Of a stretch of DNA of 64,000 bases, positions 24,597 through 29,793 are shown piece after piece. The translations under genes and the position numbers were made by a program. The notes beneath the pieces are model-generated. The model was given only the letters and a program-made list of their open reading frames with translations. It did no database searches and had not been told where the DNA came from. Position 1 is the first letter of the stretch, and the number at the start of each line of letters is the position of its first letter. The stretch is taken from assembly GCF_000188155.2 (NCBI RefSeq), contig NZ_KE124774.1, positions 2,796,356 through 2,860,355 on the forward strand, in the 5' to 3' direction. Origin of the DNA: Methylocystis sp. ATCC 49242 (lineage in GTDB: Bacteria > Pseudomonadota > Alphaproteobacteria > Rhizobiales > Beijerinckiaceae).

Positions 24597-25367
24597 TCAC
24601 TCGGTCAGGAGCGCGACGCCCTCCTTGCCGAGCAAACGATGCACGTTCAACAGGAGCTGCAGAACAACGCCGAACACGCCCAGCGCCATCCAGCCGAAGA
24701 ACACGAAGCCCCAATGCAGCGGCGCGACGAAGAGTTCTTCCATGAACCAGAAGGTGTGGCCCCATTCGTTCAGCCCCACATTCGGGATGATCATGAAGGG
24801 GCCGATCGAGACGATGAGATAGGCGAGCGAGTATCCCCTGGAGAAATAGGGAATCCGCGTCTTCGCGTGGAAGAAGCAACCCACCGCCAGGATCGAGTAG
24901 ATCGGGTAGCTCATGTAGAATTCGATGATGTGCGAGGGCGTGAAGTCCGTGTCGCGGATCACCGTCATGTGCCAGGTGCCGTCCTGCTCGGTGAAGAAGG
25001 ACGCGCCCCAATAGATCGCCGCGGCGTAGACCACCAGCCACTTCACATTATCGACGATCGAGCGCATCTCCTGCCGCGGCGTGACCGTCGACATGTCGCG
25101 CACGCGCGTCTTCCAGAGATAGCCGGCGAGTGCGAGGCCGCTGACGAGCTCCAGCGGGATCTCGGTCCACAGGATCGACATCCAATACGTCTGGAACTCC
25201 GGCGCAAAGGAGTCGAGACCGGCCCGCCAGCCATAGATCTGCTCGTAGATGCGCACGATCAGATAGAAGCTGTTGAGAAGCGCCAGCCCGATCCACAGGC
25301 CCCTCAGGTCGACAATGGGCTTTTCGGCGGCGACGGCGCCTGAAGCTGTTTGCATTGACAGGCTCAT
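24597..25367 (-). CDS. pmoC: Particulate methane monooxygenase subunit C (stand-alone copy)
   Basis: A 256-aa integral membrane subunit of the copper enzyme that oxidises methane to methanol. The family blocks FYLIVRIYEQIYGW, FQTYWMSILWTEIPLE and NVGLNEWGHTFWFMEELF are strongly conserved. The PmoC metal ligands are all present: D129 and H133 in EQDGTWH, and H146 in FTPSH. ATG 25367 is set by GGAGG 8 nt upstream; a longer frame starting at 25463 has no site. No pmoA or pmoB lies on either side: the neighbours are ygfZ and a divergent GlxA regulator. Known type II methanotrophs have such extra lone pmoC genes beside full pmoCAB operons. AmoC is a less likely reading given the methylotrophy context. 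Confidence 0.95.
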   Translation of the reverse strand: MSLSMQTASGAVAAEKPIVDLRGLWIGLALLNSFYLIVRIYEQIYGWRAGLDSFAPEFQTYWMSILWTEIPLELVSGLALAGYLWKTRVRDMSTVTPRQEMRSIVDNVKWLVVYAAAIYWGASFFTEQDGTWHMTVIRDTDFTPSHIIEFYMSYPIYSILAVGCFFHAKTRIPYFSRGYSLAYLIVSIGPFMIIPNVGLNEWGHTFWFMEELFVAPLHWGFVFFGWMALGVFGVVLQLLLNVHRLLGKEGVALLTE

Positions 25368-25439
25368 TTTTCTTCCTCCGTTTCGGCCGGCAAACGCTCG
25401 GCGTTTCCGGCAAAGCGAAGGATATGGAGTTGGGCGGGC

Positions 25440-25494
25440 TTGCCAGCGTGGCGGATTTGCCATTATCGTGACAAAGTCTGACAGCGAATTTGCC
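25440..25494. promoter_or_regulatory. Direct TTGCC repeats in the pmoC-regulator intergenic region
   Basis: TTGCCA at 25440-25445, TTGCCA at 25457-25462 and TTGCC at 25490-25494 occur on the + strand between the divergent pmoC and GlxA-type regulator genes, at offsets of 17 and 33 bases. Direct repeats are the usual form of AraC-type binding sites. Inference from spacing only. Confidence 0.3.
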
Positions 25495-25528
25495 GCTGAA
25501 CAGGCGTTTTCTGCCAGCGGGAGCGCAA

Positions 25529-26515
25529 ATGGACATCGTCATTCTCGGCTATGCGGATTGTCTGGGTCAGGGCTTCATCGGCGCGGCCGATCTGCTCCTG
25601 ATGAGCCGGCGCATGCTGAAGTCGACGGATCGGCCCGAGCCCTATCGCGTCGTGACGGCAAGCTATGACGGCAAGCCCATTCGCGACGGCTTCGGCCGCA
25701 CCCATCCGGTGGACGCTTCCTTCGCGGCGCTCGACTCATGCGCGGCGATTATCGTCCCGCCTTTCCTCTGCAGCTGCGACGATCCCATGCCGCCCACCGC
25801 AGACCTCAATGCAGCGGCCGGCTGGCTGCGCCGCCAGCACGCAATGGGCGCCATCGTGGCGGGATCATGCAACGGCGTCTTCCTTTTGGGCGAAGCCGGA
25901 CTGCTCGACGGCCGACGCTGCACGACGACATGGTGGCGCCACGACGATCTGCGCGCCCGATATCCGCGCGCCGACATCGCTCGCGGCGCCTCCCTCATGG
26001 AGGACAGGCGCGTCGTCACGGCCGGAGGCCCCCTGTCGTGGATCGATCTGTCGTTGCGCGTGATCCGCGAACTCTGCGGCGCGGAAGCGGCGAAGAAAGC
26101 GGCGGACTTCACCGTGGTCGACACGGCGCCCTCAACCCAGACGATCTACGTTCCGCCGGGTCATCTCACCGCCTCAAATCCTTTCGTGCTGGAGGCGGAG
26201 CACATCGTGCGGAAGGCGGGAAAGGCCCTGGTGACGTCGCCCATGCTTGCGCAGGCGCTCAACGTCTCCGAGCGCACGCTGCATCGACGCCTGAAGGAAG
26301 CTACAGGCGAAACGCCGAAATCTTTCATCGACCGCGTGCGTTTCGAGGCGACGCGCATGCTGCTCGAAACGACGCAGAGTTCGGTGAAACAGCTGGCTTC
26401 GGCCTCCGGCTATACGGACGAAACAAGTTTCCGCCGCGCCTTTCGCCGCTACGCCGGCATGACGCCGGGCGCTTATCGCACTTGGTCGCTGGCGCGGCGC
26501 GGCGCGAAGTCGTGA
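25529..26515 (+). CDS. GlxA family transcriptional regulator (DJ-1/PfpI-like + AraC HTH), copy 1
   Basis: A 328-aa regulator. The N-terminal amidotransferase-like DJ-1/PfpI domain (about 1-190) contains the nucleophile-elbow-like GSCNGVFLLGEAGLLDGRRCTTTWW. The C-terminal AraC HTH (about 225-325) shows MLAQALNVSERTLHRRLKEATGETPKSFI cut by VRFEATRMLLETT and GYTDETSFRRAFRRYAGMTPGAYR. ATG 25529 follows GGGAG; an upstream frame start at 25490 is less likely. It is divergent from pmoC and shares its promoter region, so it is the natural candidate to control it. Ligand unknown. Confidence 0.85.
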   Translation: MDIVILGYADCLGQGFIGAADLLLMSRRMLKSTDRPEPYRVVTASYDGKPIRDGFGRTHPVDASFAALDSCAAIIVPPFLCSCDDPMPPTADLNAAAGWLRRQHAMGAIVAGSCNGVFLLGEAGLLDGRRCTTTWWRHDDLRARYPRADIARGASLMEDRRVVTAGGPLSWIDLSLRVIRELCGAEAAKKAADFTVVDTAPSTQTIYVPPGHLTASNPFVLEAEHIVRKAGKALVTSPMLAQALNVSERTLHRRLKEATGETPKSFIDRVRFEATRMLLETTQSSVKQLASASGYTDETSFRRAFRRYAGMTPGAYRTWSLARRGAKS

Positions 26516-26554: not shown

Positions 26555-28351
26555 TCACACCGCCAGCGTCAGGCCCTCTGGCGCCGAGGCTCTCACCGGC
26601 GCCTTGGCGGGTTGGCGCCCCTTGAAGACGAAATTGCGACGCGCGGCGTGATAGGCCGGGTCCGGCCCGAAAAAATTGACGCCCATATGCGAAAGCTCCT
26701 CGCAGCGATAGGCGGCGAGCGGCCGGGTCCTTTCGTCCGACAGGCGGCGTTCGTGCTTGTCGCGCAGGAGAGACCAGAAATCGGCGCGACGCGCGATCTC
26801 TTCGGCGCGGGCCGTCACGCCGCGCTCGAACGCCTCCGCGTCGCCGCCGAGAACGTCGTCGACAAAGCCGATGGTCTTCGCCTCCGCGGTCCCCATCGGC
26901 CTGCATGCTTCCGTCAGCTCGAGCGCTTTTTCCCCGCCGACGCGCCTGGGCAGCACATAGGTCCAGTATTCGGAGCCGTATAGGCCGCCCATGCTTTTGT
27001 AGTGGGGATTGAGCACGACGCCGTCACGCGCAAAAACATGATCGGCGGCGAGCGCGAGGATCGCCCCGCCCGCTCCCGCATTGCCGCGCACTCCGGCGAC
27101 AACGACATGCGACATCGTATTGAGGATTTCGTGAACGAGATCGTCGATGGCGTTGATGTTGCGCCAGGACTCCAGCGCCGGATCGTCCGCCGCCTCGATC
27201 ACATTGAGATGGATGCCGTTCGAAAAGTAATCCTTGCCGCCATGGAGCGCGATCACTTTCGTCGGCCGGCTTCGCGCGAAGAGAAACGCGTCGCGCAGGC
27301 GATAGCATTGCTGCGTGCTCATCGCGCCATTGTAGAATTCGAAATAGATATGGCCGACGCCGTTTCGCTCGACATAACGAATTTCGCGGAAGGTGCGGTG
27401 GTCGATCTCGGCGACGACCGGCAGCACCGCCTCGGGCGTCCCGCGCAGCAGGGGGCCGAGAACCTGCGTCGCCGGCAGCTTGATTCCCGAAATCAGGCAG
27501 AACTCGGCGTCGCACATGGCGCAGCCGGCTCCCGAGGCGACGAGGCTGCAGGCGCCCTTTTGCGCATTGGCGTCGTCTTTCGCCTTGAGATGGGTGATCC
27601 AGACCGCGCCATCGACGGTCGCGCGGCAGATGGCGCCGTCGCGTTTGGCCAGAATGGCGCCCGGCGCGCCCTTGAGACGGTCCTCATGATGCGCGCCATA
27701 GAGAAAGAAGGGCAGGCCGAACATCTTGTCCAGCACGCCCGGCGCGCTGTCCGCCGCGCGGGTCTTGCGTACGACTTCGTCGCTCGTGTCGCGCGTCCAG
27801 TCGATCGCGCGATCCTTCTGCATCATCGTCGGACGCAGACGGCCGCGCACGCCCGGACGCGAATAATCGAGCGGCGGCGGCCGGAATGCGCGCGACTGGA
27901 ATTTTTCGACCGCCTCCATTACGCCGCGCACGGCGGCGTCCGTCACCTCGTTGCGATAGAGACTGCCCTTGGCGTCCGCGACAGCCGGCAGGGGAAATTC
28001 ATGGCTCGCCCATATGGGCCCGGCGTCCATCTCGGCCGCCGCCTGCAGCACCGTCACGCCCCAGCTCTTCTCGCCGGTCATGATCGCCCAGTCCAGCGAG
28101 GACGGCCCGCGATCGCCCATGATTCCGGGATGCACGATGAGGCAGACATGTTTTGTCCATACCGCCTCGGGAACCGCGGCTTTCAGCATGGGCGCGATGA
28201 TGAGGTCAGGATTGTTCGTCGCGACCGCCGAGAGCATGGCGGCTTCACTCGTGGCGAGCGTGACCGCCACCTCGTGTCCGCGGTCGGTCAATTCGATGAG
28301 CAGGCGCTGGCTGAGACTGTTGTGCGCCGTGGTGAGAAAAAGAATTTTCAT
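26555..28351 (-). CDS. hoxX: HoxX-like [NiFe]-hydrogenase maturation protein (CO ligand synthesis)
   Basis: A 598-aa two-domain protein. The N-terminal formyl-H4F-binding formyltransferase-like domain (about 1-270) carries HNSLSQRLLIEL and the hallmark HPGIMGDRGPSSLDWAI. The C-terminal enoyl-CoA hydratase-like domain (about 300-560) has VIALHGGKDYFSNGIHLNVIE and AGAGGAILALAAD. Known role: HoxX converts formyl-H4F through formyl-CoA into CO, a ligand of the [NiFe] site under aerobic conditions. No hydrogenase or hyp gene is in the window. ATG 28351 follows a GGGGGTG site. It begins 14 bases after the stop of a GlxA-type regulator on the same strand. Confidence 0.85.
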   Translation of the reverse strand: MKILFLTTAHNSLSQRLLIELTDRGHEVAVTLATSEAAMLSAVATNNPDLIIAPMLKAAVPEAVWTKHVCLIVHPGIMGDRGPSSLDWAIMTGEKSWGVTVLQAAAEMDAGPIWASHEFPLPAVADAKGSLYRNEVTDAAVRGVMEAVEKFQSRAFRPPPLDYSRPGVRGRLRPTMMQKDRAIDWTRDTSDEVVRKTRAADSAPGVLDKMFGLPFFLYGAHHEDRLKGAPGAILAKRDGAICRATVDGAVWITHLKAKDDANAQKGACSLVASGAGCAMCDAEFCLISGIKLPATQVLGPLLRGTPEAVLPVVAEIDHRTFREIRYVERNGVGHIYFEFYNGAMSTQQCYRLRDAFLFARSRPTKVIALHGGKDYFSNGIHLNVIEAADDPALESWRNINAIDDLVHEILNTMSHVVVAGVRGNAGAGGAILALAADHVFARDGVVLNPHYKSMGGLYGSEYWTYVLPRRVGGEKALELTEACRPMGTAEAKTIGFVDDVLGGDAEAFERGVTARAEEIARRADFWSLLRDKHERRLSDERTRPLAAYRCEELSHMGVNFFGPDPAYHAARRNFVFKGRQPAKAPVRASAPEGLTLAV

Positions 28352-28365
28352 ATGCACCCCCATTT

Positions 28366-29421
28366 TTACTTGAGAAAAGTCGACTGGAATCTCTCCCGAT
28401 ATTCATGCGGACCGACATTCAGGCGCCGCTGGAATGAGCGGCGCATCCGGTCCAGCGCGCCGAAGCCGCAAGCCTCGGCGATCGCCTGCAAGGACATGTT
28501 CGTCTGTTCGAGCCTGCAGCGGGCCGCCTCGACGCGCGCATGCTCCACGAATTTCGCCGGCGTCACGCCGGTCTCCTCCAGAAAGCGGCGCGCGAAATTG
28601 CGCGGGCTCATCGACAGCTGTGCGGCGAGGCGCTCCACCGTCAGCTTTTCGCTGGAATTGCCGAGAATCCAGGACTTCAGTTCTCCAATGTCCCGGCAAC
28701 CGGTCGACTCGGCCTGCAGGAAAGGGCTGAACTGGGTCTGGCCGCCCGGTCGGCGCAAAAAGACCACCATGATTCCCGCAACGACGCGCGGCGCCTCCCG
28801 CCCGAGATCCTCCTCGATCAGCGCCAGAGCGAGGTCGATACCCGCCGTAATGCCGCCGGAGGTATAGACGCCGCCGTCGCGGACGAAGATGCGGTTGGGC
28901 TCGACGCAGAGCGACGGATAGGCTGCGGCCAGGCGGTCGCAGAACGCCCAGTGCGTGGTGACCCGCCGGTTGTTCAGGAGGCCGGCGCAGGCGAGCAGGA
29001 ACGACCCCGTGCAGATCGAGGCCATGCGCCGCACGCGGCTGGACATCGCCCCGATCCAGTCGATCAGCCTTTCGTCGCCGCAGGCCGCGACCATACCTTC
29101 GCCGCCGGCGACGATGAGCGTGTCGAGGCTGTCGATCCCGGCGCAGCCATGCGCCGCCATGATCTCCATCCCGCATTTGCTGCGGACAAGGCCGGGCGTC
29201 GCCGCGATGACGAGCGTTTCATATCCCGGTTCGCTCGCCCGTCCCGCCATCCGCAATACGCGATCCGCGTAGAAGAAGGCGTCGAGCGGGCCGCAGAGAT
29301 CGAGGATTTCGAAGTCGGGATAAATCAGGAAGCCGATTTTTCGCACACGCGATACATCTCGCAGGGGCTCGACTTCCTGATCGAAAATATTGGGATCGAA
29401 ATATAGCTTCTCACGCGACAT
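28366..29421 (-). CDS. GlxA family transcriptional regulator, copy 2
   Basis: A 351-aa regulator with an N-terminal DJ-1/PfpI-like domain (about 25-210; ICTGSFLLACAGLLNNRRVTTHW nucleophile-elbow block) and a C-terminal AraC HTH (about 250-345; LAAQLSMSPRNFARRFLEETGVTPAKF and FQRRLNVGPHEYRERF). ATG 29421 is chosen because the frame upstream begins only at a TTG (29484); neither start has a strong ribosome binding site. It directly precedes hoxX (14-base gap), so regulator and hoxX are likely one unit. The two GlxA copies in this region are distant paralogues. Confidence 0.82.
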   Translation of the reverse strand: MSREKLYFDPNIFDQEVEPLRDVSRVRKIGFLIYPDFEILDLCGPLDAFFYADRVLRMAGRASEPGYETLVIAATPGLVRSKCGMEIMAAHGCAGIDSLDTLIVAGGEGMVAACGDERLIDWIGAMSSRVRRMASICTGSFLLACAGLLNNRRVTTHWAFCDRLAAAYPSLCVEPNRIFVRDGGVYTSGGITAGIDLALALIEEDLGREAPRVVAGIMVVFLRRPGGQTQFSPFLQAESTGCRDIGELKSWILGNSSEKLTVERLAAQLSMSPRNFARRFLEETGVTPAKFVEHARVEAARCRLEQTNMSLQAIAEACGFGALDRMRRSFQRRLNVGPHEYRERFQSTFLK

Positions 29422-29616
29422 ATTTAATATAATTTCGCCATTCTCGAATGGCTGCAATGACAAAAATCCGATAGAATCGGCCAAGACGAGGGCAGCACTC
29501 TCGAAGCTGAGAAATTCAGGGGTCAGCTTATTGTTTTTGTTTTTCTAAAACTGGAAGCGGGTCGGACGGCTCGATAATTCGGCTTTCGCCAGCGTAAAAC
29601 CGCCGACGATCGACAA

Positions 29617-29793
29617 TTATCGGGACAGACTGGCGATTTTTTCGAATTTGGGATGAATCGCGTCGAGAGCGACATCCACGCCGCGGATAATCGCGACATT
29701 CGCCAGAAGAAGGACGGCCACGCAAACCGTTGTGATGATCACGTCGGACAGGAATATCCGCTTCTCGCCGCCGCTTGTAGAATGATCGCCCAT
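29617..29793 (-). CDS. Small single-pass membrane protein (58 aa)
   Basis: A 58-aa ORF starting MGDHSTSGGEKRIFLSD, with one hydrophobic helix (about 18-38, VIITTVCVAVLLLANVAIIRG) and a polar tail ending KIASLSR. ATG 29793 has GGGAG 8 nt upstream. The polar-helix-polar layout and the ribosome binding site support a real gene. No family recognised. It lies between the GlxA regulator and the divergent mch. Confidence 0.5.
   Translation of the reverse strand: MGDHSTSGGEKRIFLSDVIITTVCVAVLLLANVAIIRGVDVALDAIHPKFEKIASLSR

Follow-up and report, generated by a model that had tools for sequence, protein, structure and literature searches.

A conserved GlxA-HoxX gene pair of methanotrophs, separate from the HoxX of hydrogenase operons, and its possible role in carbon monoxide production

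In a 64,000-nucleotide stretch of the genome of Methylocystis sp. ATCC 49242 (contig NZ_KE124774.1, positions 2,796,356 to 2,860,355, hereafter the window), a gene encoding a HoxX/HypX-type enzyme is preceded by a gene encoding a GlxA-type regulator, here named GlxA2. At the sequence level, GlxA, a putative operator and HoxX form a conserved unit that is separate from hydrogenase HoxX and is found in some genomes without a detected hydrogenase. On balance, we favour the view that this is a self-regulated module of methanotrophs, in which HoxX makes carbon monoxide (CO) from formyl-tetrahydrofolate (formyl-H4F) for a purpose that does not depend on hydrogenase, perhaps signalling.

Organization of the glxA2-hoxX pair

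The window genome comprises 4.73 Mb in 6 contigs and is rated 100% complete. The core of the locus consists of three elements:

26555..28351, minus strand: HoxX/HypX-type enzyme, with a formyltransferase fold and a coenzyme A (CoA)-binding crotonase fold; catalytic residues all present.
28366..29421, minus strand: GlxA2, a DJ-1/PfpI-AraC regulator (DJ-1/PfpI and HTH_18 domains), first gene of the glxA2-hoxX pair.
29455..29488, minus strand: conserved putative operator shortly before GlxA2, with two direct half-sites (TTGGC.../TTGTC...) at a spacing of 21 bp.

An earlier note on this DNA had described a HoxX without a hydrogenase in the window, with a second GlxA-type regulator lying 14 bases upstream. 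Reading of the sequence bears out this arrangement: 14 bases separate the GlxA2 stop from the likely HoxX start at ATG 28351 (the open frame has a further ATG at 28363), and the first GlxA-type gene is found at 25490-26515 on the plus strand. The start given for GlxA2 in that note, ATG 29421, was kept, since the operator at 29455-29488 overlaps an earlier TTG at 29484. The HoxX gene is intact, and none of the genome's matches to the [NiFe]-hydrogenase large subunit (PF00374) or to HypD lies in the window (the genome-wide search was limited to these two). A promoter and terminator scan was uninformative (two promoter-like sites versus 0.7 expected, two terminator-like sites versus 3.4).

HoxX of the window keeps the catalytic residues of HypX

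The Pfam families Formyl_trans_N, Formyl_trans_C and ECH_1 matched across the 602-residue HoxX frame, which has the fusion of a formyltransferase N-domain to an enoyl-CoA hydratase-type C-domain expected of the HypX/HoxX family. The closest solved structure is HypX/HoxX 6j0p (E 2e-164), from Aquifex aeolicus (PMC6802093). That paper gives His74, Asp80, Asp109, Tyr416 and Glu426 (Aquifex numbering) as the catalytic residues of HypX, and all five are kept in the window protein as H78, D84, D113, Y455 and E465 (602-residue numbering from ATG 28363). Among the 174 HoxX rows that we compiled, in which a few loci appear twice, the catalytic Tyr and Glu are present in 174 and the His and both Asp residues each in 170, the four exceptions at each of these three sites being three truncated rows and one substitution, in L245 or L221. 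HoxX is predicted to convert N10-formyl-H4F, by way of formyl-CoA, to CO. It is the sole full-length copy in the window genome, where three other matches are weak and partial (20.1-21.1 bits), and its nearest named relatives in the contig scan described below are from Methylocystis.

HoxX of methanotrophs lies next to GlxA, away from hyp genes

A scan of contigs from 84,980 species yielded 135 HoxX relatives, and hypD and/or hypE were found nearby in 54 of the best 80 of these 135. In the window family, HoxX was detected at E <= 1e-60 in 28 of 298 genomes, 13 belonging to the window genus, 7 to a genus designated g40 (probably Methylosinus-like) and 8 elsewhere. An alphaproteobacterial set was built from 25 further places of the window genus and g40, none of which has hyp genes near HoxX; with the window it holds 26 places from 20 genomes. 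A gammaproteobacterial set was drawn from the order that includes the methanotroph genome of locus L019, where 56 of 201 genomes carry HoxX, and holds 60 places from 45 of these 56. Flanks extended over 6-8 kb, less at contig ends, with at least 1.2 kb upstream in 80 of the 86 methanotroph places.

In 20 of 26 alphaproteobacterial and 42 of 60 gammaproteobacterial places (62/86), HoxX has a GlxA2 homolog on its own strand at a distance of no more than about 3 kb. Neither hypD nor hypE was found near HoxX in any of the 86 places, within the flanks or up to the contig end. The GlxA pairing pointed out in the earlier note turned out to be the most conserved feature of the HoxX context. Over the 174 rows, 66 were linked to GlxA, 61 to hyp genes, none to both and 47 to neither. 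A class-wide sample of 385 genomes contained one other HoxX genome, and its HoxX is hyp-linked. In alphaproteobacterial loci outside the window-type block, a conserved-neighbour search retrieved GlxA as the only widespread neighbour, and in three g40 loci the module also includes a DUF2189 membrane protein (Pfam-confirmed in one, L132).

Several HoxX copies per genome occur in the window genus (L139, L140, L141, L147 and L148, in genomes G089 and G247). G247 carries two full HoxX genes and two contig-end pieces, and one copy in G089 is located on a 299-kb contig, maybe a plasmid. The multiple copies in these two genomes suggest that the module is mobile.

The window HoxX falls outside the hyp-linked lineage

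For phylogenetic analysis, 167 rows were cut to 135 by leaving out duplicates and fragments (L128, L130, L196, L145, L147, L148, L247), rows shorter than 520 residues and near-identical rows. Rows were trimmed at 620 residues, thus excluding most of the hemerythrin part of the fusion proteins described below. In the 135-row tree, all 47 hyp-linked rows fell within one set of 53 rows, the remaining six being L073 and five rows (L050, L065, L069, L076 and L156) in which the contig ends no more than 1.1 kb before hoxX. Two hand-picked subsets of these rows, of 70 and 39, gave further trees. In the 70-row IQ-TREE tree, a single branch (support 100/99) split off 26 hydrogenase-side HoxX, with the window HoxX on the opposite side; these 26 are 25 rows with hypD/hypE nearby and L073, assigned to this side on account of the HypD and HupL of its genome. 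The 39-row tree, computed under a mixture model with strict labels, showed the same split (15 versus 24, Shimodaira-Hasegawa-like approximate likelihood ratio test 99). The comparison with HoxX of hydrogenase operons, which the earlier note had called for, places the window HoxX opposite the hyp-linked lineage, together with the HoxX that are paired with GlxA in alpha- and gammaproteobacterial methanotrophs. The trees have no known root and give no order of age between the two roles.

GlxA2 and its putative operator

The best NCBIfam match of GlxA2 is FtrA, with 236.3 bits; this score is below the equivalog cut-off of 425 bits, which rules out that GlxA2 is FtrA itself. Within the window genus and g40, a GlxA2 match of at least 49% identity was found in 19 of 20 genomes with HoxX (all except G234) and in 0 of 12 genomes without it, one of which (G114) carries a GlxA paralog of 40% identity. 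In a GlxA tree that carries long-branch warnings, 60 HoxX-adjacent GlxA proteins grouped apart from nine paralog rows, including one probably spurious frame (L257 3555), and from five GlxA1 rows, with a weak support of 77. The nearest solved structure to the DJ-1 part of GlxA2 is isocyanide hydratase (E 3e-26), and the isocyanide-hydratase-like Cys is found in 60 of 60 GlxA2 rows and the Asp in 59.

Upstream of GlxA, we identified a putative operator of about TTGGCMGAAAACGAGGGATNTTTGTCMTTG, formed by two direct half-sites 21 bp apart. Direct half-sites are used by AraC-type regulators. Of 60 upstream stretches, 54 contain the operator with scores of 27.9-50.2 bits, a count that is partly circular because the matrix was trained on these same stretches; 300 shuffles gave 6.9 bits at most. 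In the six other stretches (L129, L144, L190, L232, L241, L243), it is found elsewhere upstream of the module. Two sites outside the training set give independent support and lie directly upstream of HoxX genes without an upstream GlxA (L221, 46.6 bits; L230, 34.8 bits). The window contains a single strong site, that at 29455-29488 (30.2 bits), followed by one of 6.6 bits, and five shuffled windows reached 5.0 bits at most. No site of 4 bits or more was found in the window genome's own hydrogenase locus, and the 61 hyp-linked loci (1.04 Mb) contain one site of at least 10 bits (15.4, L033). We infer that GlxA2 is an activator of glxA2-hoxX, which would bind the direct-repeat operator before its own gene and turn on the pair upon some small-molecule cue.

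Further operator-like sites were seen elsewhere in some loci. They are weak (10.2-12.5 bits) in L134, L199, L214, L241, L244 and L245, and stronger in L140 and L237; that of L140 scores 28.6 bits and lies on the opposite strand, about 2.7 kb past the HoxX start.

The module occurs with and without detected hydrogenase genes

HypD and the [NiFe] large subunit were searched for in 54 genomes, the latter at E <= 1e-30 with weaker matches not listed. Neither was found at these settings in three module-bearing genomes, G198 (99% complete, one contig), G211 (100%) and G238 (93%), and G231 has large subunits without HypD. HypD was detected in all 25 genomes of the window genus in this set, so that its absence from G198 is unlikely to reflect weak search power. 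Three genomes (G215, G267, G272) carry a strong HupL without any HoxX. The gammaproteobacterial genomes of L019 and L028 have HypD and no large subunit at the same threshold. Neither protein was found in the HoxX-bearing genomes of nine Pseudomonas, two Lysobacter, one Moritella and one Pseudonocardia, whose completeness is unknown, and both are present in the cyanobacterium Microseira (L085). A [NiFe]-hydrogenase that HoxX could serve is present in the window genome, and none was detected in G198, G211 and G238.

HoxX homologs of Pseudomonas, Lysobacter and Pseudonocardia (L083, L087, L091-L095, L024, L031, L082) have variable neighbours, comprising a FecR/TonB receptor, LysR, an ABC transporter and a luciferase-like monooxygenase. 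A scan of chosen neighbours near these genes retrieved no hydrogenase or CO gene, and HypD was absent from the eight of the ten genomes that were searched (those of L092 and L094 were not).

The genome search suggested in the earlier note located a [NiFe]-hydrogenase together with hypABCDEF about 225 kb from HoxX, at C6:2580226-2598263. This locus carries hybE, a hupK-like gene, hypA, hypB, hypF, hypC, hypD, hypE and an NtrC-type (hoxA-like) regulator, along with hupD, another hypC and genes for cytochrome b and for two hydrogenases, each with a small and a large subunit; the names hupK-like and hoxA-like are putative, and the start of the 962-residue hypF frame is set too early, since the beginning of this frame is also covered by hypB in a different reading frame. 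It has no hoxX, the NtrC-type regulator directly following hypE. In eight genomes from other genera of the family (L150-L157), the gene order is hypE-hoxX-hoxA where the contig shows it.

Partner genes in other methanotrophs and a proposed use for CO

In 24 of the 60 gammaproteobacterial places, HoxX is extended at its C-terminus by about 150 residues forming a hemerythrin domain. Six intact fusions were scanned (L205, L206, L210, L217, L218, L243), all with Pfam Hemerythrin above its cut-off, and the shortened fusion L226 gave no Pfam hemerythrin match. All seven di-iron ligand positions are kept in 24 of 24 fusions, according to the seven-residue pattern that we take to be that of hemerythrin metal ligands. 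The domain of these fusions (L205-L207, L209-L225, L242-L244, L247) is bacteriohemerythrin-like. In 9 of the 60 places (L188, L190-L194, L199, L201, L203), HoxX is followed by an MHYT-PAS histidine kinase with a receiver protein between the two (Pfam-scanned in L192), and a relative of this receiver is likewise encoded after a second HoxX from the window genus (L146). MHYT is a proposed CO-sensing domain, and the MHYT regulator CoxC responds to CO and requires copper (PMC11347149). A formate-H4F ligase (FTHFS) gene is located downstream of HoxX in 4 of the 60 places (L195, L229, L230, L231). Finally, L028, L190 and L202 have a second operator ahead of a gene pair encoding a flavin/2Fe-2S reductase and a PNPOx protein, the latter giving in L028 a Bac_globin match just above the cut-off (21.8 versus 21.0 bits).

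As conservation of the HypX catalytic residues indicates, HoxX would move the formyl group of N10-formyl-tetrahydrofolate to bound CoA and release CO. A hydrogenase-independent use of this CO is supported by the module genomes without a detected hydrogenase. Most likely, CO would be a gas output from which a haem, copper or di-iron protein reads one-carbon/oxygen status, a step proposed because of the partners found elsewhere (hemerythrin fusion, MHYT kinase, globin). A complete endogenous CO signalling circuit is a more tentative proposal, possible though doubtful: GlxA2 would sense a one-carbon or reactive-carbon signal, HoxX, fed in some species by FTHFS, would make CO, and copper (MHYT), di-iron (hemerythrin) or haem (globin) proteins would read the ratio of CO to O2.

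Alternative explanations

Several observations weigh against the favoured reading of the module, in addition to the partial circularity of the operator count. GlxA2 is not adjacent to HoxX in 24 of the 86 methanotroph places. Its Cys and Asp are also kept in paralogs and are thus no mark of a special ligand. CO is not a known ligand of hemerythrin. The window genome has no MHYT match (CooA, RcoM, globins and hemerythrins were not searched) and no form-I CO dehydrogenase over the cut-off, so that a receiver of the type proposed is lacking there. Furthermore, in the window genus, a strong HupL was found in 11 of 13 genomes with HoxX versus 3 of 12 without (p 0.005, uncorrected for kinship), and HupL is present in all seven genomes with a window-type locus. 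In the gammaproteobacterial order, HypD was found in 51 of 56 genomes with HoxX versus 12 of 20 taken from the 145 without (p 0.004, uncorrected for kinship and with completeness unknown).

The co-occurrence with HupL in the window genus fits a service to hydrogenase in trans, in which HoxX would supply the CO ligand to the uptake hydrogenase at C6:2580-2598 kb, whose operon lost hoxX or never had it. We regard this as rather unlikely, but as a live rival in the window genus, where it keeps its weight because no MHYT match and no form-I CO dehydrogenase over the cut-off was found in the window genome. The hypA, B, F, C, D and E genes of that locus, the direct passage from hypE to the hoxA-like gene where relatives in the family have hoxX in between, and the presence of just one HoxX in the genome, with intact catalytic residues, are all consistent with it. 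Such a service leaves unaccounted for the module in G198, G211 and G238, the strong HupL without HoxX in three genomes, the hydrogenase locus devoid of the GlxA operator and the position of the window HoxX outside the hydrogenase lineage. Of the two possibilities raised in the earlier note, a hydrogenase encoded far away does exist and lacks hoxX, but we favour the other, a different CO/formyl role, on the strength of the HoxX trees, of a regulator and operator dedicated to the pair, and of the module genomes without a detected hydrogenase.

HoxX could also be a one-carbon overflow valve comparable to the PurU formyl-H4F hydrolase, freeing tetrahydrofolate from formyl-H4F, where CO would be a by-product (or the product of value would be formyl-CoA) and GlxA2 would sense one-carbon overload. 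The FTHFS genes downstream of HoxX in four loci speak for such a valve, as does the position of the glxA2-hoxX pair beside mch and tetrahydromethanopterin-type genes in window-type loci; among DJ-1-AraC regulators, some are known to have folate-linked amines as ligands. However, the mch neighbourhood was seen in window-type loci only, losing carbon as CO would be costly where a hydrolase would suffice, and the hemerythrin, MHYT and globin partners are left unexplained, which makes this explanation quite improbable. Relocation of hoxX from the family's own hyp operon, which the shared domain architecture and the hyp-linked HoxX of other genera (L150-L157) might suggest, is hardly credible and already refuted for that operon as sampled: the hydrogenase operon without hoxX that the earlier note had envisaged is there, but the HoxX of L150-L157 share just 41-46% identity with that of the window, and a clade of 14 window-type and g40-type rows with the family's five hyp-linked rows was rejected (approximately unbiased test, p 2.9e-6).

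Neighbouring genes in the window

Three further genes lie close to the pair:

24597..25463, minus strand: orphan pmoC/amoC-type gene, a neighbour outside the core.
25490..26515, plus strand: GlxA1, a DJ-1-AraC regulator distinct from GlxA2 and transcribed towards HoxX, a neighbour outside the core.
29617..29793, minus strand: small open reading frame located between GlxA2 and mch, whose 58 residues include a single hydrophobic stretch.

GlxA1 was found in four of the six other window-type loci (L126, L127, L128, L130) and was not found in L125 and L129. The pmoC/amoC-type gene is kept alongside GlxA1 in the same four loci and was likewise not found in the other two; no pmoA or pmoB was seen adjoining it in the window. 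The small open reading frame has counterparts of about 40-44% identity over 36-37 residues at the equivalent position in L126, L127 and L128; it is weakly conserved in sister loci, and its tie to the module is a candidate one.

Relation to known systems and significance

HoxX/HypX is described solely as a hydrogenase maturation enzyme in the available parts of PMC6802093, PMC12134894 and PMC2974642, and a literature search returned no papers joining HoxX with methanotrophs, HypX with hemerythrin, or methanotrophs with endogenous carbon monoxide. The window HoxX shares with HypX/HoxX of A. aeolicus (6j0p) and Cupriavidus necator the two-domain architecture and the catalytic His, Asp and Asp of the N-domain and Tyr and Glu of the C-domain, residues named in PMC6802093. 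It differs in falling outside the hyp-linked lineage and in being paired with GlxA instead of hypD/hypE, and methanotroph HoxX occurs in some genomes without a detected hydrogenase and carries the hemerythrin domain in 24 of the 60 gammaproteobacterial places. The MHYT domains of CoxC, the CO sensor of Afipia carboxidovorans, are found in the kinase beside some gammaproteobacterial HoxX, but the output there is a histidine kinase and not LytTR (PMC11347149 for CoxC), and the window genome has no MHYT counterpart. Compared with GlxA/FtrA-type DJ-1-AraC regulators, GlxA2 has the same DJ-1/PfpI and HTH_18 domains and the catalytic-like Cys and Asp, but probably forms its own HoxX-tied subgroup (weak tree support), with its own putative operator. 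Haem oxygenase-type enzymes provide endogenous CO production; an enzymatic source of CO in an aerobic cell is likewise proposed here, with one-carbon folate instead of haem as its origin.

These results suggest that methanotrophs may make CO deliberately for a use other than hydrogenase maturation. The label of hydrogenase maturation would then be misleading for HoxX in these bacteria, because the lineage has its own regulator, operator and gas-binding partners and is kept in some genomes without a detected hydrogenase. If the proposal is true, HoxX would here be a gas-messenger synthase of common origin with the hydrogenase-maturation enzyme. The module offers a testable case of purposeful CO production from the one-carbon folate pool, in organisms where this pool and copper-oxygen chemistry are central.

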